Of a stretch of DNA of 64,000 nt, positions 33,534 through 43,833 are shown one piece after another (the first letter of the stretch is position 1; every line of letters begins with the position of its first letter). The position numbers were made by a program, and so were the translations under genes. This DNA comes from Nitrospirota bacterium (GTDB lineage Bacteria; Nitrospirota; JACRHJ01). Where the stretch lies: positions 62,001 through 126,000 of the forward strand of contig JAJYJM010000002.1 in assembly GCA_021789495.1 (NCBI GenBank), given 5' to 3'. The notes beneath the pieces are model-generated. The model saw only the letters and a list, made by a program, of their open reading frames with translations, was not told the origin of the DNA and made no database searches.

Positions 33534-33602
33534 TTGACATGCGCCTCCCTCTCGTGTATATATATTCACATCTTGTAATATATTGATATTGAAATTCACA
33601 AG
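33534..33602 (+). promoter_or_regulatory. Sigma70-type promoter and putative ArsR operator
   Basis: TTGACA (33534-33539), 17-bp spacer, TATATA (33557-33562); downstream AATATattgATATT (33577-33590) and CTTGTAAT/ATTCACAAG inverted arms. Confidence 0.6.
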
Positions 33603-33615
33603 GAGAAAACGTTCT

Positions 33616-33981
33616 ATGGATTGCCTCAGAGAAACAGCAGAGCTTCTGAAAATCGTCGCGCACCCGGCCAGGCTCGAAATCCTCCAGAAGCTCGAAACCG
33701 AGATACTCTGCGTCTCGGACATAGAGGAGCTTCTTGGAGTCGGGCAGTCCAACGTCTCGCAGCATCTGTCTATCCTAAGGCGTTCGGGCCTGGTCGACTG
33801 CTACGTTGATGGGAAGCTTCGGTGCTACTTCCTTAAGGACCCGCGCGTAATCGACATACTCGTGCTTCTGAAGAAGAAATACGATGCGCCTCTGCCCGCG
33901 CCGGCGTGCTGTCCGGCAAGGCCGCACGCGCAGACAAAGCGGACTGCGTCTTCCGGAAACGCGCATACGGTAAATCAATAA
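33616..33981 (+). CDS. ArsR-family winged-helix repressor
   Basis: CLRETAELLKIVAHPARLEILQKLETEILCVSDIEELLGVGQSNVSQHLSILRRSGLVDCYVDGKLRCYFL; C-terminal CC motif. Confidence 0.92.
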   Translation: MDCLRETAELLKIVAHPARLEILQKLETEILCVSDIEELLGVGQSNVSQHLSILRRSGLVDCYVDGKLRCYFLKDPRVIDILVLLKKKYDAPLPAPACCPARPHAQTKRTASSGNAHTVNQ

Positions 33982-33995
33982 GAAGGAGTTTCTAC

Positions 33996-34766
33996 ATGAG
34001 CGAGTGTTGTTGTCCATCGACAGACAAAGAGGAAGCAAACAAGGACAAGTGCTTCGTCTGCGGCGGCAGGATTGTCTATTTCCAGGCGCCGAAGGAATTC
34101 ACGTGCGGCTCGTGCGGCAGGACGGAGCAGGGCTACGTTTCATGCGAGAACGGACATTATGTCTGCGACACGTGCCACAAGGCCGGCGCCTTTGACGTGA
34201 TTAAGGAAATGGCGCTGGTGGCAAAGTCCAAAGACCCTTTCGCCACAGCGGAGGCGATGATGGACAGCCCGGTGATTCCGATGATCGGCTGCGAGCACGC
34301 CTTCATTACCGCCGGGGCGTTCATGTCCGCCCTTAGGAACGCAGGAAGCCTGAATGTAACGGACGCGCAGGTAATCGACGCCATGCGGCGCGCGAATACG
34401 ATTTCAAAGGCCGCATATTGCGGACTCGCCGGGACGTGCGGGATAGCGTCGGGGCTTGCCGCCTGCTTCAGCGTGATACTCGGTTCAAGCTGCGACAAGG
34501 ACAGGGAATACAGCATGACCCTCATGGCGATGGCGAGGGCGACACAGGCCATAGCCGCCGAGGGTGGGCCGTGCTGCGACAAGGACTTCGTGCGCACGGC
34601 CCTGACAGTCGGCTGCCAGATGGCCAAGGAATATTGGGACGTAAAGCTCCCGATACACAAGGAGAGGATAGTCTGCCATCACTTCAAACGCGGCAACCAC
34701 TGCCACGGCTCAAGGTGCGCGTATTTCCCGAAGACTAAGGAAGAGCTCAGGCGGCTAAGGGAATAG
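33996..34766 (+). CDS. DUF5714-like cysteine-rich protein
   Basis: 256 aa; zinc-ribbon-like CFVCGG...CGSCGR...CENGHYVCDTCHK; GCEHAFITAGAFMSALRN; YCGLAGTCGIASGLAACFS; CHHFKRGNHCHGSRCAYFP; AGAAGGAG RBS. Confidence 0.8.
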   Translation: MSECCCPSTDKEEANKDKCFVCGGRIVYFQAPKEFTCGSCGRTEQGYVSCENGHYVCDTCHKAGAFDVIKEMALVAKSKDPFATAEAMMDSPVIPMIGCEHAFITAGAFMSALRNAGSLNVTDAQVIDAMRRANTISKAAYCGLAGTCGIASGLAACFSVILGSSCDKDREYSMTLMAMARATQAIAAEGGPCCDKDFVRTALTVGCQMAKEYWDVKLPIHKERIVCHHFKRGNHCHGSRCAYFPKTKEELRRLRE

Positions 34767-34848
34767 GCCTGAAACTTAAGGTCGCGCACGACAGCGCATG
34801 AGCGGCTGGCCGAGATATTAAAAAACTCGTCGCGAAAGGAGCGCATGC

Positions 34849-35637
34849 ATGGAAATATCGTTTCTGGCGGTGCTCGTTCTCCTGGGGCTGGGGGGCGGTT
34901 TCCTCTCCGGCCTTTTGGGGCTTGGCGGGGCGATATTCATGATTCCGCTCCTGCTCTATATCCCGCCTCTTCTCGGCATGGGACACCTCGACATGAAGCA
35001 GGTCTCCGCGATAAGCATGGTGCAGGTTCTCGCGGCGTCTGTTTCGGGGCTTATCGTACATCATAAGAACAAGCTGGTGAGTAAGTCTCTGCTTCTGTAT
35101 ATCGGGGTATTCGGGGCGGCGGGCAATCTCGTAGGCGCGGTATATTCCAAACACGCAAAAAGCGAGTTTCTCCTTGCCGTCTTCGCCACGCTTGCGCTCA
35201 TATCGGCGGTCGTGATGTTCGTGCCGAAACGCGAGCAGGGAGAAAATCTCCCGCCGGACGGAATAAAATACAACAAGCCGCTTGCGGCGCTCATAAGTCT
35301 CGCCGTCGGCGGCTTCGCGGGGATGGTGGGCGCAGGCGGGGCGTTCATGTTCATCCCGATAATGATATACCTCTTGAACATCCCGACGCGCATAACCATA
35401 GGCAGCATGTTGGGCATCGTGTTCATGAGCGCCGTGATGGGCACGCTTGGGAAGATTACCACCGGCCAGGTGATATGGCCCTACGCGATTGCGCTCGTGG
35501 CCGGCGCGGTGCCCGGTGCGCAGGTGGGCGGGCGGATAAGCAAGAGGGTAAACACCAGGAACCTGCGATACGCCATCGCGGTGATTATCGTCATCACCGG
35601 CCTCCAGATGTGGCGCCAGGTATTGAGCGGCCACTAA
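34849..35637 (+). CDS. TSUP (TauE/SafE) family membrane protein
   Basis: 262 aa; LGGGFLSGLLGLGGAIFMIPLLLYIPP...VSAISMVQVLAASVSGL. Confidence 0.92.
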   Translation: MEISFLAVLVLLGLGGGFLSGLLGLGGAIFMIPLLLYIPPLLGMGHLDMKQVSAISMVQVLAASVSGLIVHHKNKLVSKSLLLYIGVFGAAGNLVGAVYSKHAKSEFLLAVFATLALISAVVMFVPKREQGENLPPDGIKYNKPLAALISLAVGGFAGMVGAGGAFMFIPIMIYLLNIPTRITIGSMLGIVFMSAVMGTLGKITTGQVIWPYAIALVAGAVPGAQVGGRISKRVNTRNLRYAIAVIIVITGLQMWRQVLSGH

Positions 35638-35663
35638 GCCATTAATCAAAGGGGGTGTTATAC

Positions 35664-36083
35664 ATGGATAAGGTAAAGAAGAACGTGTCCGTCATGTGCT
35701 TTCACGACGAGCTCTGCCAGGTCTACAACGCCCTTATGACCGCGCTCAGTCTGCTCCGGGAAGGAAATACTGTAGATGTTTTTTTCGGCTCGCGCGGCAT
35801 AAACGCGGTACACAAAGACAAGATACGCGAGCTGAAATGCCTGCCCGACCAGCCGGAAATCGGAGAGGCCGTGCTGCGGAAGATGGACGAGATGAACCTC
35901 CCGAGCGCCGAAGAGCTGATGTTCTTCCTTATCGCCGAGAAGGCGCGCGTATGGGCGTGCCCTTTGAACAAGGAGCTCTTCGGCATCAAGGAAAGCGATT
36001 TCTACGACGGCGTGAAGACCGCAGACCCGGCGACTTACTACAAAGATGTTATAATGAAGGCAGATATGAACCTAACCTTCTAA
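35664..36083 (+). CDS. DsrE/DsrF-like family protein
   Basis: 139 aa; VSVMCFHDELCQVYNALMTALSLLREGNTVDVFFGSRGINAV...ARVWACPLNKELFGI. Confidence 0.75.
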   Translation: MDKVKKNVSVMCFHDELCQVYNALMTALSLLREGNTVDVFFGSRGINAVHKDKIRELKCLPDQPEIGEAVLRKMDEMNLPSAEELMFFLIAEKARVWACPLNKELFGIKESDFYDGVKTADPATYYKDVIMKADMNLTF

Positions 36084-36094
36084 ACGAGGTTTCG

Positions 36095-37282
36095 ATGAAG
36101 AATATAGTCGTCCTCGGAGGCTCTTTCGGGGGGCTGACCGCCGCGCTGGAACTAAGAAGGCTTTTAGGGCGAAATATTGAAATAACCGTTGTGAGCGGCG
36201 ACGGCCTGTTCGTATTCATGCCCTCGCTTCCGTGGCTTATAATGGGCCACAGGCGCCCGCAGGATATAACGCTCAAGGTCCCGGACATACTGGCGCCGAA
36301 AAAGATAGGGTTCTTCCACGAGGCCGCCGAACGCATTGACCCGGAGGCCTGCAAGGTCTTCACGGCCACAAGGGAAATCCCTTACGATTATCTCATCATA
36401 TCTACGGGCCCGCATCTCGCATACGACGAGATACCGGGGCTTGGCCCGGACAGGGGATATACGGCCAGCACTTTCACGCTCGACCACGCCGTGAACGCCG
36501 GTCTTGCATGGCAAAAACTGTTCGAAGACCCAGGGCCGGTAGTTGTCGGCTCGGCGCAGGGCGTAAGCTGTTTCGGCCCTTCGTACGAGCTTGCCTACGA
36601 GATGGATGCGGAACTCAGAAGAAGAAAAATCAGAAACCGCGTCCCCCTCGTCTACCTTACGTCCGAACCGTACCTGGGCCATATGGGGGTGGACGGTTTC
36701 GGCAACTCCAGAAGGTTCTTCGAGGATACCCTGGCCGAACGGGAGATAAAGACCATCGTCAGCCGGGCCATAGAGGAGGTCGTCCCAGGAGAGATAAGGC
36801 TGAAGGACGGCACGAAACTCCCGTACAAGTTCGCAATGATCGCGCCGCCTTTCAAGGGCGTGCCCGCGGTCGCTCCCCTTGGAAACCCAAGGGGGTTTAT
36901 CCCCGTGGACAAGCAGTACAGGCATACGAAGCATAAAAATATCTTCACAATCGGAGTCGCCGTCGCGATCGCCCCGCCGGATCCGACACCCGTGCCGACA
37001 GGCGTGCCGAAGACGGGGTTTATGACCGTGCGTATGGCAAAGACGGCCGCGGCTGTCATATCCTCTGAGATTAAAAATACGCCGCCGCCGTCTCCGGCGG
37101 AAATGAACGTGGTCTGCATCATGGACATGGGAAACACAGCCGCCTTTATGAAGGCCGACCCGCTGCTCCCGCCGAGGCAGAAATCCGTTACAAAAGACGG
37201 CTATCAATACAGGCTGCTCAAGATCGCCTTCGAGAAATACTTCCTGTGGAAAATGAAACGTGGCATAAGCGGCCTGCCGTAA
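36095..37282 (+). CDS. Sulfide:quinone oxidoreductase-like FAD flavoprotein
   Basis: 395 aa; MKNIVVLGGSFGGLTAALELRRLL; YLIISTGPHLAYDEIPGLGP; candidate redox Cys in GVSCFGPSYE and VVCIMDMGNTA. Confidence 0.85.
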   Translation: MKNIVVLGGSFGGLTAALELRRLLGRNIEITVVSGDGLFVFMPSLPWLIMGHRRPQDITLKVPDILAPKKIGFFHEAAERIDPEACKVFTATREIPYDYLIISTGPHLAYDEIPGLGPDRGYTASTFTLDHAVNAGLAWQKLFEDPGPVVVGSAQGVSCFGPSYELAYEMDAELRRRKIRNRVPLVYLTSEPYLGHMGVDGFGNSRRFFEDTLAEREIKTIVSRAIEEVVPGEIRLKDGTKLPYKFAMIAPPFKGVPAVAPLGNPRGFIPVDKQYRHTKHKNIFTIGVAVAIAPPDPTPVPTGVPKTGFMTVRMAKTAAAVISSEIKNTPPPSPAEMNVVCIMDMGNTAAFMKADPLLPPRQKSVTKDGYQYRLLKIAFEKYFLWKMKRGISGLP

Positions 37283-37338
37283 GCCGGGTGACGTTTTAAC
37301 CCTTGTCATTTCCGGAACCGGTGTGTTATATTTTATAA

Positions 37339-38730
37339 ATGCCGAACATCTCAGGGTTTGGGGTGGCCGTTGCCGTTACGGCCACCCTCGCCTTTTTCAC
37401 CGGATGTGCAACCTATACCCCGAAACCGCTCTTGCCCGAAAAGACAGCCCGGCAGTTTGAAAGCCGTTCCTTCGCCAGTCCGGCGCTAAGGAAGTTCGTC
37501 GAAAAAAACCTCCGAAAAAAAATAAACCCCTGGCCGCCCGCGAAATGGGATATGAACACCCTCTCGCTCGCGGCATTTTATTATAACCCCGGCCTCGACA
37601 CCGCGCGATGGAGGCTGAAAGAGGCCCAGGCCTCCGTCATTACCGCCGGAGAGCGTCCAAACCCGTCGGTGAGCATCTCGCCGCAATATGTTACAAACCC
37701 CTCGCCCGGCTCGACGCCCTGGGTGCTCGGATTTTCCTTCGACATTCCAATCGAGACCGCCGGGAAACGCGGCTACCGCATCGCCGAGGCGAAAGGCAAC
37801 ACGCTGGCCGCGCGTTATGCGTTGGCAGAGGCGGCATGGAAGGTGCGAAGCCGTTTGAGGGGCGCGCTGCTTGATTATTTTGCCGCATACGGGAGGGATA
37901 ATATACTCAGGGAACAGGCAAGGATCGACGGGGAGATGCTCGCCGTCCTGAAGGCGCGCCTTGCGGTCGGAGAGGTCTCGGAGCCGGATGTAACGCTGGC
38001 GTCCGTGGACTACGACAAGACGCTGCTCCTGGTCAGGGAAGAGAAGTCCAGGGTCATCGGCGCGCGCGCGAAATTGGCAGGGGCGATCGGCATACCGGTG
38101 AAGGCGCTAAATGGAGTGCGGCTTTCTGTAGGTATTTTCAGGACCCCGCCGCCGCTCGGCAGTTTCTCTCTGCAAAGACTCAGGCGCAAGGCCCTTACAA
38201 ACCGCCCGGACATACTTGAGGCTCTGGCGCGATACTCCGCGAGCCAGTCGCATCTTCAACTCCAAATTGCGAAACAATACCCGGACATACACATAGGGCC
38301 GGGCTACAAATACGACCAGGGGCAGAACAAGTGGGGTCTCGGCATCTCCATAGAATTGCCGATACTGAACCAAAACCAGGGGCCGATTGCCCAGGCCGAG
38401 GCCGCCCGTTCGCGGCAGGCCGCGCGTTTCAGGGAGATTCAGGACGGGATTATAATAGATACGGAACGGGCCGTCGCCGGATACGGCTTGTCGCTTGAGC
38501 GGCTGAAGACGGCGGAGGGGCTTCTTGCGGGAAAAGAGAAATCTCTTTCCTCGCTCGAATCCATGTCCGCTGTCGGGGAGACGGATCGCCTCGCCCTGCT
38601 TGGTGGCGAGACAGAATACGAGAAAGCGCGCCTTTTGCGGCTGGAGAGCCTCATAAACGCGGACAGGGCGCTTGGGCTTATTGAGGACGCCATCCAGTGG
38701 CCGTTGAGTCTGCCGGAGAAAAAACCATGA
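37339..38730 (+). CDS. TolC-like outer-membrane efflux lipoprotein (heavy-metal RND type)
   Basis: 463 aa; lipobox FTGCA; repeated coiled-coil OEP domains. Confidence 0.88.
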   Translation: MPNISGFGVAVAVTATLAFFTGCATYTPKPLLPEKTARQFESRSFASPALRKFVEKNLRKKINPWPPAKWDMNTLSLAAFYYNPGLDTARWRLKEAQASVITAGERPNPSVSISPQYVTNPSPGSTPWVLGFSFDIPIETAGKRGYRIAEAKGNTLAARYALAEAAWKVRSRLRGALLDYFAAYGRDNILREQARIDGEMLAVLKARLAVGEVSEPDVTLASVDYDKTLLLVREEKSRVIGARAKLAGAIGIPVKALNGVRLSVGIFRTPPPLGSFSLQRLRRKALTNRPDILEALARYSASQSHLQLQIAKQYPDIHIGPGYKYDQGQNKWGLGISIELPILNQNQGPIAQAEAARSRQAARFREIQDGIIIDTERAVAGYGLSLERLKTAEGLLAGKEKSLSSLESMSAVGETDRLALLGGETEYEKARLLRLESLINADRALGLIEDAIQWPLSLPEKKP

Positions 38731-39779
38731 CGCGAAGAAGCAAGTCCGTAATCACGCTGTTAATATTCATCGCCCTGGCCGCCTTCCTGGTCTGGCGCTT
38801 CCTTCCTATGGGCGGCAAAGGAGAGGAGCGCGAAATATCCGCGCCAACTGGCCCGGCTGCTCAGGCGGGCGTCGTAACATTAAGCCGGGAGATGCTGGAA
38901 AGCGCCGGGATAAAGACGGAAACTCCGAAACCTTACGTCTACCGCGAACAGACGCACGCCTATGTGACCGTGCTCGACACCGGGGATTTGGTAGACTTGA
39001 GAAAAAACTATCTGGCCGCAAAGGCCGAGGGGCAAAAGGCCGGAGCCGCCCTTGAAACTACACGCGCGGAATACTCGCGGATGAAGAAACTCTACGACGA
39101 GAAGAACGTCTCTCCGAAGGCATACCAGGCCGCGGAGGCGGCCTTCCGCGCGGACGAGTCGGACTATGAACTGGCGAAAGGGAACATCCAGGCGATAGAG
39201 TTCGGCGCAAGCCAGAAATTGGGGAACGCGCTCGCAGGCGGGGTATGGAACGAGACGCCCGCTTTTTTCAGGCTGGAGACGCGCCGGGACGTGCTTTTGC
39301 AGGTCACCCTGCCGCAGGACTACGTCTCCAATGCGCCCCCTGCGGGGCTTAAGATTATCGCGCCTTCGGGTAAGACTATAACTGCGCGATTCATCTCCCT
39401 TACCCCGCGAACCAACCCGCAGATTCAGGGAATAAGCTTTTTCTACGCCGCTCCCGCGAAGACCGGTCTTCTCCCGGGCATGAACGCATCCGCCGTATTC
39501 CCGACGGGCCGACCGGTAAGTGGTTTATTTATTCCAGCCTCCGCCGTCGTATGGTGGCAGGGGCGCGCCTGGGCATATATCGAGGCTGGTGAACAGACCG
39601 CAGGCCAGGTTACCTTGACGCGCCGCGAGGTCTCCACGGAAAATCCCGTGGACGGCGGATGGTTCGTATCCGGCGGTTTTTCTCCGACGGATAAAATAGT
39701 CGTAAAGGGCGCGGAGACGCTCCTCTCGCAGGAGTTCCTCGCAAAACCCGCCGGCGGAAACGGGGGAGATGAGGATTAA
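38727..39779 (+). CDS. RND efflux periplasmic adaptor (HlyD/CzcB-like)
   Basis: MTRRSKSVITLLIFIALAAFLVWRFLP; YLAAKAEGQKAGAALETTRAEYSRMKKLYDEKNVSPKAYQAAE. Confidence 0.88.
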   Translation: MTRRSKSVITLLIFIALAAFLVWRFLPMGGKGEEREISAPTGPAAQAGVVTLSREMLESAGIKTETPKPYVYREQTHAYVTVLDTGDLVDLRKNYLAAKAEGQKAGAALETTRAEYSRMKKLYDEKNVSPKAYQAAEAAFRADESDYELAKGNIQAIEFGASQKLGNALAGGVWNETPAFFRLETRRDVLLQVTLPQDYVSNAPPAGLKIIAPSGKTITARFISLTPRTNPQIQGISFFYAAPAKTGLLPGMNASAVFPTGRPVSGLFIPASAVVWWQGRAWAYIEAGEQTAGQVTLTRREVSTENPVDGGWFVSGGFSPTDKIVVKGAETLLSQEFLAKPAGGNGGDED

Positions 39780-39788
39780 ACGCCACCC

Positions 39789-42700
39789 ATGCTAAGTTCA
39801 ATTGTCGGATTCTCCATACGGCGCAGGTGGATAGTCATGGCGCTGGCATGTCTGCTCCTGGGCTACGGCCTCTATACCCTTGAGCGCGCAAGATACGACG
39901 TCTTTCCGGAGTTCGCCCCGCCGACGGTTACGATACAGACAGAAAGCCCCGGCCTCTCGCCGGAGCAGGTGGAGATGCTGGTTACACAGCCGATAGAAAC
40001 GGCTGTAAGCGGGATACTCGGAGTGAAGACGGTGCGCTCCAGTTCCATCCAGGGACTCTCCGTAATCACAGTCGTTTTCAAATCCGGGAGCGACATCTTA
40101 AAGGACAGGCAATTCGTGTCCGAGCGGCTCTCCACCATCCTGACCAGCCTGCCGCGCGAGGCCGGGAACCCCGTCATTGTCCCGCTCACTTCATCTACGA
40201 GCATAGTGATGGTGATAGGGTTGACGTCCGGGAGGCTCTCTCTTATGGACCTTCGGACGGCGGCGTTCTGGACGGTCAGTCGGAGGCTTATGGCGGTGCC
40301 CGGCGTCTCAAAGGTCGTCGTACATGGAGGCGAGGAGCGTCAGTTCCAGGTGCAGGTTATTCCCAGGCGGCTTATAAAATACGACGTCTCATTAAACGAT
40401 GTGTTGGCCGCCGCGCGAAACGCCGCAGGCATAAAGGGCGCGGGGTTTGCCGATACGGAAAATCAGCGCATAATCCTGAGAACCGGTGGGGCGCCGGTTA
40501 CGGCCAAGGGCATCGGAGACACGGTCGTGGCCTTTCACGGCGGCGCGCCGCTAAGGATTCAGGACGTGGCGCGCGTAGTGGAAGCCCCGGCGCCGCCTAC
40601 CGGCATGGCGAGCGTGATGGGGCAGCCTGGGGTGCAGCTCCTCGTCTCGGAGCAGTACGGCGCAAACACGCTTCGGGTTACGAAGGGGATAGAAAAGGCC
40701 CTTGCCGAGCTTAAACCCGCCCTCGACTCGGACGGGATAACCGCGAGGATTATCTTCCGTCCGGCGAGCTTCATAGACACCGCGCTCCATAACTTAAGGA
40801 CTTCCCTTCTGATAGGCGCAGTCCTCGCCGTAATCGTTCTTTTTCTTTTCCTGTTTAATCTCCGGGCCGCGGCGGTCTCCTGCACCGCGATACCGCTCTC
40901 GCTCCTTGCAGGCGCGATAGTCCTGGACAGGTTCGGGTTCGGCCTTAACCTGATGACCATCGGCGGCCTGGCCATTGCAATAGGCGAGGTCGTGGACGAC
41001 GCCGTGATAGACGTCGAGAACATCATGAGGCGGCTTGGAGAAAACCTCCGCCTTGAGCGTCCGCGCCCGGCCTGGCAGGTGGTCAAGGACGCGTCCCTTG
41101 AGGTGCGGAGCGCGGTCGTATACGCAACGTTCGCGGTCATGCTCGTATTCGTGCCCATACTCACCATGTCCGGCGTGGCGGGCCGTCTCTTCAGGCCGCT
41201 TGGAGTCGCGTATATCCTCGCCGTGCTGGCGTCTCTCTCCGTGGCCCTCACGGTCGTCCCCGCGCTCTCGTATCTCCTGCTCAGGCACAAGCTTAAAGAG
41301 CAGGAGCCGCCCGTGGTCGCATGGATGAAGAGAAGATACAGGTCCGTGCTCGAAGCCGTCGAAAGACATTTCAAGGCGGCAATTGCGGTAGCGGCGCTCC
41401 TGACGCTGACCGGGCTTTCCCTTGTATTCTTCCTTGGCGGCACGTTCCTTCCGCGCCTGCACGAGGGGCATTTCATTGTCCACATGAACATGCTTCCGGG
41501 CACTTCTCTCGAGGAGTCAATGCGGCTCGGACGGCGCGTAACCGATGAACTTCTCAAAATCCAGTACGTAAAGACCGTCGCCCAGAGGGCGGGCCGCGCG
41601 CCTGAGGAGGACGACATACACGGCACGCACCAGAGCGAGTTCGAGGTAGACTTAAAACGCCTGAACGGGAGCGACATCGAAAAGGCAAGGGCGCAGATTG
41701 AGGATACGCTTAAAAAATTCCCCGGCGCGAACTTCGAAGTGGACACATTTCTTACCGAACGCATTGGCGAGACCATATCCGGATATGTCGCCCCGGTCGT
41801 TGTGAACATATACGGGAAAAGCCTGGGAGACCTCGACACGGAGGCAGGCCGGGTCGCCTCTGTCTTGAACGGAATCCGGGGCGCGTCGGGAGTGCAGGTG
41901 CAGTCCGTGCCCGGAATGCCGGAGATGTCGATAAGCCTAAGGAAGGACAGCCTTGCCAGATGGGGACTAAGCCCCGTAAGCGTAATGGACGCGGTTCGGA
42001 CCGCCTACCAGGGGACTGTCGTCGGCAAGGTGTACGAAGGGAACAGAAGTTTCAATGTCTCCGTCATCCTGCCGCCGCGCGAAAGAAGAAAGGCATCCTC
42101 CGTCGGCGAGCTTACACTGAAAAGCCCATCCGGGGCATACGTAAGATTAAGCCGGCTTGCGGACATACGCGAAATCCCCGGACGGTATATCGTCCTGCAC
42201 CAGGGGGCGAGGAGGGTGCAGACGGTCACGTGCGGCGTGAGCGGGCGGGACTTGAATTCGTTCGTAAAAGAGGCCGAAAGGAAGATAATTGCAAACGTAA
42301 AGCTCCCTGCGGGCAGCTATTTTGAATTTACCGGCGCGGCCCAGGCGGAGGCAAAATCCCGGCGCGACTTAATCGTCCACTCCCTCATGGCGGTAGTCGG
42401 AATCATTCTGCTCCTTTCGGTCGTAACCGGTTTTAGGAACCTGCTGCTTCTAGTATTAAACCTTCCGTTCGCGCTTGTGGGCGGGGTTGTTGCGGTGCTC
42501 CTCTCCGGGGGCGAGATGTCCCTCGGATCCATGGTCGGCTTCGTAACGCTTTTCGGCATAACGCTTCGTAACTCCATAATGCTTATCTCGCATTACGAGC
42601 ATCTTGCCGGCCTCGAGGGCATGGAGTGGGGGGCCGAAACATGCCTGAAGGGGGCGTCCGAGAGATTGGCTCCCATACTTATGACGGCTATTGTAACCGC

Positions 42701-42884
42701 GCTCGGGCTTCTGCCCCTGGCCCTTGGCAGCAACGCGCCGGGGCGGGAGATAGAAGGCCCGCTTGCGGTGGTTATACTGGGCGGACTTTTCACTTCCACT
42801 GCGCTGAATCTCCTGCTTTTGCCGGCGCTTTCCCTCCGTTACGGGAAGTTCGGTGTCGCCGGAAGAGATACCACACTCGAATAA
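39789..42884 (+). CDS. RND efflux inner-membrane pump, heavy-metal (CzcA/HME) like
   Basis: 1031 aa; YDVFPEFAPPTVTIQTESPGLSPEQVEMLVTQPIE; GEVVDDAVIDVENIMRRLGEN. Confidence 0.92.
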   Translation: MLSSIVGFSIRRRWIVMALACLLLGYGLYTLERARYDVFPEFAPPTVTIQTESPGLSPEQVEMLVTQPIETAVSGILGVKTVRSSSIQGLSVITVVFKSGSDILKDRQFVSERLSTILTSLPREAGNPVIVPLTSSTSIVMVIGLTSGRLSLMDLRTAAFWTVSRRLMAVPGVSKVVVHGGEERQFQVQVIPRRLIKYDVSLNDVLAAARNAAGIKGAGFADTENQRIILRTGGAPVTAKGIGDTVVAFHGGAPLRIQDVARVVEAPAPPTGMASVMGQPGVQLLVSEQYGANTLRVTKGIEKALAELKPALDSDGITARIIFRPASFIDTALHNLRTSLLIGAVLAVIVLFLFLFNLRAAAVSCTAIPLSLLAGAIVLDRFGFGLNLMTIGGLAIAIGEVVDDAVIDVENIMRRLGENLRLERPRPAWQVVKDASLEVRSAVVYATFAVMLVFVPILTMSGVAGRLFRPLGVAYILAVLASLSVALTVVPALSYLLLRHKLKEQEPPVVAWMKRRYRSVLEAVERHFKAAIAVAALLTLTGLSLVFFLGGTFLPRLHEGHFIVHMNMLPGTSLEESMRLGRRVTDELLKIQYVKTVAQRAGRAPEEDDIHGTHQSEFEVDLKRLNGSDIEKARAQIEDTLKKFPGANFEVDTFLTERIGETISGYVAPVVVNIYGKSLGDLDTEAGRVASVLNGIRGASGVQVQSVPGMPEMSISLRKDSLARWGLSPVSVMDAVRTAYQGTVVGKVYEGNRSFNVSVILPPRERRKASSVGELTLKSPSGAYVRLSRLADIREIPGRYIVLHQGARRVQTVTCGVSGRDLNSFVKEAERKIIANVKLPAGSYFEFTGAAQAEAKSRRDLIVHSLMAVVGIILLLSVVTGFRNLLLLVLNLPFALVGGVVAVLLSGGEMSLGSMVGFVTLFGITLRNSIMLISHYEHLAGLEGMEWGAETCLKGASERLAPILMTAIVTALGLLPLALGSNAPGREIEGPLAVVILGGLFTSTALNLLLLPALSLRYGKFGVAGRDTTLE

Positions 42885-42922: not shown

Positions 42923-42965
42923 TTGACAACCGTCCGTTAATATGTAATTATTACAATATAATAAT
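42923..42965 (+). promoter_or_regulatory. Promoter overlapped by a Fur/PerR-like box
   Basis: TTGACA (42923-42928), 17-bp spacer, AATTAT; near-perfect palindrome ATTATTACAATATAATAAT (42947-42965). Confidence 0.7.
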
Positions 42966-42988
42966 CAAATCACTTTAAGGGACATGAA

Positions 42989-43399
42989 ATGACGGAAGAC
43001 AAGGTTAAAAAGATAAAAATGACGCCGCAGAGGGCGGCCATACTGAAATACCTCGATGGCAACACGTCGCACCCGTCCGCCGAGACTATATTCGAGGCTG
43101 TCCGCAAAAAATACCCCATGATTTCATTCACGACCGTCTATAACACGCTTCAGACGCTAAAAGACCTCGACCGCGTCCGGGAGCTTAACATCGACGACGA
43201 GCGTAAGCGCTACGACCCTAACGTAAATATTCATCATCACCTGATATGCACGAACTGCAGGAAGATAGTGGACATCCGCATGGATTTCCCGCTCAATGTC
43301 CCCGATGAAAAGGCGCAGGGGTATATGATAAGCGGTCGGCACGTGGAATTCTACGGGCTGTGCCCGAAATGCAGAAACAAAAAGAAAAACAACTACTGA
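42989..43399 (+). CDS. Fur-family regulator, PerR-like
   Basis: 136 aa; [70 protein letters not shown]. Confidence 0.92.
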
Positions 43400-43413
43400 C
43401 AAAGGAGCCAAGC

Positions 43414-43833
43414 ATGGAGATTATCAACGAACACAAGATCGGACTTGCCAAGGGGACGGCGGTAGAAGAAGACGTGGCAATGAACTTCAAGGGCGAGACG
43501 ACTGAGGTGGGCCTTTATCTCGCCATGGCCCGCGCGGCGCAGAGGGAGGGTTACCCGGAGGTCGCCGGGACGCTTAAGACAATCGCGTGGGAAGAGGCTA
43601 TGCACGCGGCGCAGTTCGCGGAGATGAACGGCCTTGTTTCCGAGAGCACAAAGGAGAACATAGAGCGGATGATACGGGGCGAGATTGGCGCAAACAACGG
43701 CAAAAAGGCGGCGGCGAAAAAGGCCAGGGAAAACGATATTGACCCCGCGCACGACTTTTTCGACGAATCCTCGCGCGACGAGGCTCGCCACGCCAGGATG
43801 CTCCAGGGCCTGCTGGACAGGTACTTCAAATAA
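43414..43833 (+). CDS. Rubrerythrin-like ferritin-domain protein (no rubredoxin domain)
   Basis: [57 protein letters not shown]...DEARHARML. Confidence 0.9.

Follow-up and report, generated by a model that had tools for sequence, protein, structure and literature searches.

We analysed a 64,000-nucleotide stretch of contig JAJYJM010000002.1 from a Nitrospirota bacterium (the window; the genome is 2.08 Mb and 97% complete) and found in it, from open reading frames (ORFs) and Pfam matches, five co-directional genes on the forward strand at 33616–37282. They encode an ArsR-family repressor, a DUF5714 protein, a TSUP transporter, a DsrE2-like protein and a sulfide:quinone oxidoreductase (SQR) homologue. 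Sequence comparisons suggest, with a probability of roughly two in three, that these genes form a repressor-controlled operon for the handling of sulfide and sulfane sulfur, which would be the genus-specific version of a locus found throughout the phylum. That a sulfur-handling operon here is under a distinct and widely conserved ArsR subtype is well supported by the comparative data; for convenience we call this subfamily ArsR-CC, a name of our own. The features of the locus are as follows.

33534–33562, + strand: promoter TTGACA-N17-TATATA (TTGACA at 33534–33539, TATATA at 33557–33562)
33562–33589, + strand: predicted operator, a 12-4-12 dyad, ATATTCACATCT-TGTA-ATATATTGATAT, from a palindromic position weight matrix (PWM)
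33616–33981, + strand: ArsR-family repressor of the ArsR-CC subfamily, with C32, C70, C98 and C99 (HTH_5, 55.7 bits, 4e-15)
33996–34766, + strand: DUF5714 Cys-rich protein (PF18978, 142 bits against a cut-off of 26.2, 2e-41)
34767–34848, + strand: deletion scar, the 3' end of a thioredoxin-like ORF of ~80 aa (alignment with relatives)
34849–35637, + strand: TSUP (TauE/SafE) transporter (PF01925, 164.5 bits against a cut-off of 32.6; TauE, 4e-48)
35664–36083, + strand: DsrE2-like predicted sulfur carrier (PF13686, DrsE_2, 49.8 bits, 5e-13)
36095–37282, + strand: SQR homologue (Pyr_redox_2, 2e-16; 321 bits to 3hyv and 306 to 3sz0)

The gaps between the five genes are, in order, 14, 82, 26 and 11 nt, and a purine-rich ribosome-binding site (RBS) could be read at every start. 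An initial annotation had described five same-strand genes with short spacers and RBSs, and all of these were present on re-reading, with the families exceeding their Pfam cut-offs. Its idea of a sulfur-responsive island also held up, in that ArsR, SQR, DsrE2 and TSUP recur phylum-wide with the Cys residues of the repressor and the operator in its promoter conserved.

We searched 296 genomes with DsrE2, SQR and ArsR and joined the matches by coordinates, and the four families were found together across Nitrospirota. An ArsR-CC orthologue lay within 10 kb and on the same strand for 48 of 60 close SQRs (mostly at least 55% identity) from 16 families, compared with 0 of the 11 more distant SQRs tested for an orthologue within 10 kb; DsrE2 was within 3 kb of SQR in 21/31 cases. 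Among 29 ArsR-CC loci examined, a same-strand downstream run was present in 19, and the families in these runs were DsrE (18), Pyr_redox_2 (8), DsrH (8), DrsE_2 (7), TauE (6), SelD-type AIRS (6) and MMPL (5). No arsenic or metal-efflux family with at least two members appeared among the 25 families shown for the runs. Because no arsenic gene recurs beside the orthologues, a sulfur or selenium signal is favoured over arsenite for ArsR-CC. Our literature search found no description of an ArsR/SQR/DsrE/TauE locus in Nitrospirota.

In other families the full operon opens with ArsR and three small proteins resembling DsrE, TusC and TusB; SQR follows, in some cases then another ArsR, and next DsrE2. 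After these come a methyltransferase in some cases, an MMPL/HAE3-type RND protein, a protein resembling LolA and a DUF1302-like protein of the outer membrane. Compared with this arrangement, ArsR-TusD/C/B(DsrEFH)-SQR-DsrE2-MMPL-LolA_like-DUF1302-like (L043, L051, L073, L081), the window has an orthologous ArsR (50–60% identity), SQR (56–77%) and DsrE2 (65–72%) and the same operator, but it lacks DsrEFH and the MMPL/LolA/outer-membrane exporter and adds DUF5714 and TSUP. No MMPL gene was found in the window genome or its genus. The sister genus G013 carries in one locus ArsR (77%), a small ORF, TSUP (73%), DsrE2 (92%), a methyltransferase, MMPL, LolA and the outer-membrane protein, and this gene order ties the window arrangement to the phylum operon. 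The second ArsR type within the operon (L043, L073, L074, L075, L078) has a conserved AEFCKTF and a Cys in its last helix, and may act as a further sulfur sensor. In several families (L083–L085, L087) ArsR-CC is the first gene of selD-TSUP operons with the same operator type; the selD of L085 contains an in-frame TGA at the selenocysteine (Sec) site (SSCAG-TGA-AAKF), and its product is likely a selenoprotein.

The repressor is, as judged from alignment, a member of an unnamed, phylum-wide ArsR subfamily with four invariant Cys residues and a common operator. All 35 aligned orthologues carry C32, C70, C98 and C99 and share an LPxPxCCP-type motif; the four residues include the Cys in ILCVSD (C32) and the C-terminal ACC pair (C98-C99) that had been pointed out as a potential sensor. 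The window protein matches the generic HTH_metalloreg at 78.5 bits and no NCBIfam equivalog above its cut-off, with 49 bits to BigR against a cut-off of 155. The Cys pair of SqrR and BigR is absent: Q24 occupies the column of the 'RLMxxC' Cys, and the last helix is free of Cys. In the alignment C32 (LCVSD) falls on the first of the two Cys residues in the alpha-3 site of CadC (ELCVCD); the protein does not carry the full CxC, and the position of the second CadC-type Cys (C60) is Ser in the window and in nearly all orthologues. A search for ArsR-CC on plasmids found none. A predicted model of the repressor was poor (predicted template modelling score, pTM, 0.37) and was not used.

A promoter TTGACA-N17-TATATA, already noted ahead of arsR, was read in the sequence, and TTGACA also precedes the other aligned ArsR-CC genes (TTGACT in L069). 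The operator matrix was a palindromic (symmetrised) 28-bp PWM trained solely on 10 promoters from other families, with a consensus of about ATATgCAAATATnnnnATATTTGcATAT. In the 64 kb of the window it ranked 33562–33589 first, at 18.8 bits, with the next independent site at 11.3. Of 25 ArsR-CC promoters held out from training, 17 had an operator-type site scoring at the shuffle floor (p=0.003), those of selD-TSUP operons included. A consensus pattern search gave one good site per genome in this family, at the ArsR-CC promoter; in the window's own genome 33562–33589 was the sole site with fewer than three mismatches. The dyads initially proposed as operator, AATAT-N4-ATATT (33577–33590) and CTTGT/ACAAG (33572–33576 and 33598–33602), do exist, but the conserved operator is the longer 12-4-12 dyad. 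The CTTGT/ACAAG arms were rejected as operator, being absent from sister genomes and with ACAAG belonging to the RBS. The site at 42940 (score 11.3) was likewise rejected as an ArsR site; it precedes a Fur/PerR-like gene. In another genome (L052:10002–10029) a strong ArsR-CC operator with TTGACA has no recognisable gene behind it, adjoins a DUF5714-DUF2284 fusion and is followed by repeats.

Its sequence marks the flavoprotein as a genuine homologue of SQR. It scores 301–321 bits against solved SQRs, C159 and C341 align with both conserved active-site Cys residues, and the FAD motif GGSFGG aligns as well. The third Cys of the classical enzymes, which we take to be Cys128 of Acidithiobacillus ferrooxidans, is missing: its column holds Phe127, and two residues upstream there is Ser125, at whose column 13/13 aligned phylum homologues have Cys. 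A split, type III-like SQR in an ArsR-CC operon elsewhere (L102:7709–8954) was considered as a selenoprotein and rejected, as it carries a frameshift (assembly error or pseudogene). The fourth gene is named DsrE2-like because it exceeds the cut-off for Pfam DrsE_2 but not that for NCBIfam SulfCarrDsrE2 (24.7 bits against 210). TSUP homologues were found at other ArsR-CC loci.

The DUF5714 protein (256 aa, 21 Cys) has a RING/zinc-ribbon-like N-terminus, a helical core and a C-terminal CHH..CHGSRC. Among 27 relatives C19, C22, C37, C40, C50, H54, C57, C60, H101, C142, C148, C194, C227, C236 and C241 are invariant. It aligns over its full length with the first half of MbdU (NF045648; 269 bits, below the cut-off of 600), a proposed metal-binding double selenoprotein listed with the motif CU (PMC13188914). 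Unlike MbdU, it lacks the DUF2284 half and Sec and is Cys-only; complete DUF5714-DUF2284 fusions occur elsewhere in the phylum (633 bits to MbdU). The otherwise conserved GPSCCK is GPCCDK in the window genus, and the CC of this motif may correspond to the CU of MbdU. A profile search of the PDB gave weak zinc-finger matches to the N-terminus alone. A predicted fold (predicted local distance difference test, pLDDT, 60; pTM 0.64; 4-row alignment) had no match in a fold search (best E 0.63). Single-protein and profile searches of viral contigs found no relatives, and our searches found no experimental function for it. A kinship to C_GCAxxG_C_C, suggested by the motif YCGLxGxCG, was dropped, with no Pfam match at E<=5.

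Among 33 DUF5714 genes, six were near the ArsR-CC sulfur locus, four in the window genus and two in other families (L043, L051). The chance of at least two such adjacencies in other families is about 0.005 by our estimate under a simple model, and the co-occurrence of DUF5714 with ArsR-CC at genome level is strong, 20/26 versus 63/265 as counted across genomes uncorrected for phylogeny. The remaining genes have mixed neighbourhoods, such as radical S-adenosylmethionine (SAM) and polyketide synthase (PKS) genes, ArsR with an HMA P-type ATPase (L035), and plasmid-borne arsM/acr3. The suggestion that DUF5714 is a general partner of sulfur loci was therefore not sustained by the neighbourhood search; judged from gene content, it is a genus-level recruit and a later addition to the sulfur set. 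On a Paraclostridium bifermentans plasmid (L068) a DUF5714 gene is convergent with arsM-acr3-arsR, a possible link to arsenic, and in one family (L037, L044, L047, L048) it adjoins genes for a lipid-type B12 radical SAM protein and a type III PKS-like protein.

Within the genus, ArsR-DUF5714 is present in 5/5 members, of which G022 has ArsR followed by a truncated start of DUF5714 at the contig end. The three relatives with complete loci (G003, G031, G039) have ArsR-DUF5714-TSUP and then, as far as the contigs allow, genes for an outer-membrane efflux protein (OEP), a periplasmic adaptor (MFP) and an RND pump. The constant set in the genus is thus ArsR-DUF5714-TSUP and the variable part is DsrE2-SQR, so the five co-directional genes exist as initially delimited, but their boundary is not that of the set kept in the genus. 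The thioredoxin-like ORF before TSUP is intact in L003 and L004 of the genus and in L069 of the sister genus; the window and L002 retain just its 3' end. Past 37282, where the five-gene run had been taken to end, the same three efflux genes continue co-directionally in the window to 42884.

37303–37332, + strand: candidate near-leaderless RND-operon promoter, TTGTCA-N18-TATATT with an extended -10 (promoter scan)
37339–38730, + strand: OEP (PF02321, 117 bits; in the same place in the genus)
38727–39779, + strand: RND periplasmic adaptor, MFP (RND_mfp, 67 bits, below the cut-off; conserved in the genus)
39789–42884, + strand: RND pump of CusA/CzcA type (TIGR00914, 667.8 bits against a cut-off of 701)

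The OEP gene starts 57 nt past the end of SQR, with an extended -10 about 7 nt before its start codon, and L002 and L004 both retain TGTTATA(T/C)TT just 5' of this codon. Because a conserved extended -10 lies so close to the start, OEP-MFP-RND may be a separate, near-leaderless unit, and the pump probably has its own promoter; the closeness of the -10 (37303–37339) to the OEP start suggests possible leaderless transcription. These Czc-like genes are conserved at the locus within the genus, and the closest solved relatives of the pump are ZneA (435 bits) and CusA (376 bits), with the TIGR00914 score falling short of that model's cut-off. Further along, an AT-rich dyad promoter (42940–42967) was read before genes for a Fur/PerR-like regulator and an overlapping rubrerythrin-like protein (42989–43833), probably a peroxide-response pair. 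PADLOC gave no match.

Several observations weigh against a sulfide and sulfane-sulfur operon. G003, G031 and G039 keep ArsR without DsrE2 or SQR between TSUP and OEP, and a search for SQRs of this clade found none in four relatives of the genus. Since relatives without SQR keep the repressor, the switch must serve some purpose besides sulfide oxidation by SQR. The operon genes include no persulfide dioxygenase, and ArsR-CC lacks the two-Cys pair that defines the known sulfane-sulfur ArsR sensors (PMC12423496). C32 sits at the alpha-3 metal(loid)-ligand position, with a Czc-like pump downstream. Conservation of the operator may partly reflect the -10 element: the dyad overlaps it, and with a symmetrised matrix some of the PWM signal comes from promoter conservation.

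An alternative is a metal(loid) resistance operon, with C32 and C98-C99 of ArsR-CC as the sensor of a thiophilic metal(loid), DUF5714 as a metal-binding protein, the RND pump as effector and the sulfur genes as passengers. The genus-constant set adjoins OEP-MFP-RND while DsrE2-SQR is missing in three relatives, the pump is nearest to ZneA and CusA, C32 matches a CadC ligand, and DUF5714 stands elsewhere beside ArsR with an HMA P-type ATPase and beside arsM/acr3/arsR. We nevertheless consider this unlikely, since sulfur or selenium genes lie downstream of ArsR-CC and no metal or arsenic gene recurs there, Ser replaces the second CadC-type Cys, and the RND genes have their own candidate promoter and were seen beside ArsR-CC in no other family. 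The metalloid alternative raised in the initial annotation is disfavoured for the repressor but may still apply to DUF5714. A selenium system, with ArsR-CC responding to selenite or selenide, TSUP moving a selenium anion and DUF5714 as the Cys version of a selenoprotein, would fit the selD-TSUP operons with their shared operator and one in-frame TGA, as well as the likeness of DUF5714 to MbdU and the MbdU-like fusions in the phylum. It appears improbable given that the search for SelB gave nothing above cut-off in G013 or in the window genome and its genus (G123, G040 and G014 were positive) and that ArsR-CC is mostly accompanied by SQR and DsrE-type sulfur genes. The varying gene content among close relatives might even suggest five unrelated genes that are co-directional by chance; this is most improbable, and already contradicted by the ArsR-SQR-DsrE2-TSUP linkage, which recurs with a single conserved operator in as many as 16 families, and by short spacers and RBSs throughout.

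Under the sulfur-handling reading, a ligand-free ArsR-CC dimer would bind the 12-4-12 dyad over the promoter, as the conserved site suggests. For the ligand and thiol chemistry we infer that reactive sulfur (per- or polysulfide, possibly selenium species) would react with C32 and C98-C99 and cause release from DNA. From their families, SQR would oxidise sulfide to zero-valent sulfur with reduction of quinone, DsrE2 would carry sulfane sulfur and TSUP would move a sulfur anion across the membrane. DUF5714, taken into the operon in this genus, would serve there as a Cys-rich thiol protein that binds metal or chalcogen.

By analogy, the operon would work like the cst operon of Staphylococcus aureus (CstR, TauE, CstA, CstB, SQR) without being a member of that system. 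The repressor CstR belongs to the CsoR family. The cst layout also places SQR, TauE and a sulfurtransferase under a sulfur-sensing regulator (PMC5480029), and a comparable layout is known from the FisR/BigR operons of Acinetobacter baumannii (PMC7315123). The window and cst share SQR, TauE/TSUP, a sulfane-sulfur carrier and a thiol-based repressor, but the window has an ArsR rather than CstR and no CstB, the persulfide dioxygenase, and cst has no DUF5714. With SqrR, BigR, SoxR and sHdrR (PMC12423496, PMC7315123) the window repressor shares the ArsR fold, sulfur-oxidation genes as neighbours and an operator over the promoter, but it has the invariant C32, C70 and C98-C99 in place of their two sensor Cys residues. 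Compared with the alpha-3 sensors CadC and Escherichia coli ArsR, it has a Cys at the same position (C32) but Ser for the second, an extra vicinal pair at the C-terminus, and a sulfur instead of a metal neighbourhood.

With somewhat less than even confidence, we propose ArsR-CC as a new chalcogen (S/Se) sensor class, which through C32 and the C-terminal Cys-Cys would control sulfide oxidation, sulfur relay, TSUP and selD from one 12-4-12 operator across Nitrospirota, with DUF5714 recruited as a thiol/metal partner in the window genus. For DUF5714, the window locus offers one genomic context. Known sulfane-sulfur ArsR sensors are defined by two conserved Cys residues (Cys50 and Cys116 of sHdrR), and according to a 2025 study this pair is missing from many of the ArsR proteins encoded next to sulfur-oxidation clusters, which may work differently (PMC12423496). 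The window repressor would be an instance of such a protein, with four defined Cys residues, an operator and clear target genes, and this combination makes its mode of sensing directly testable.

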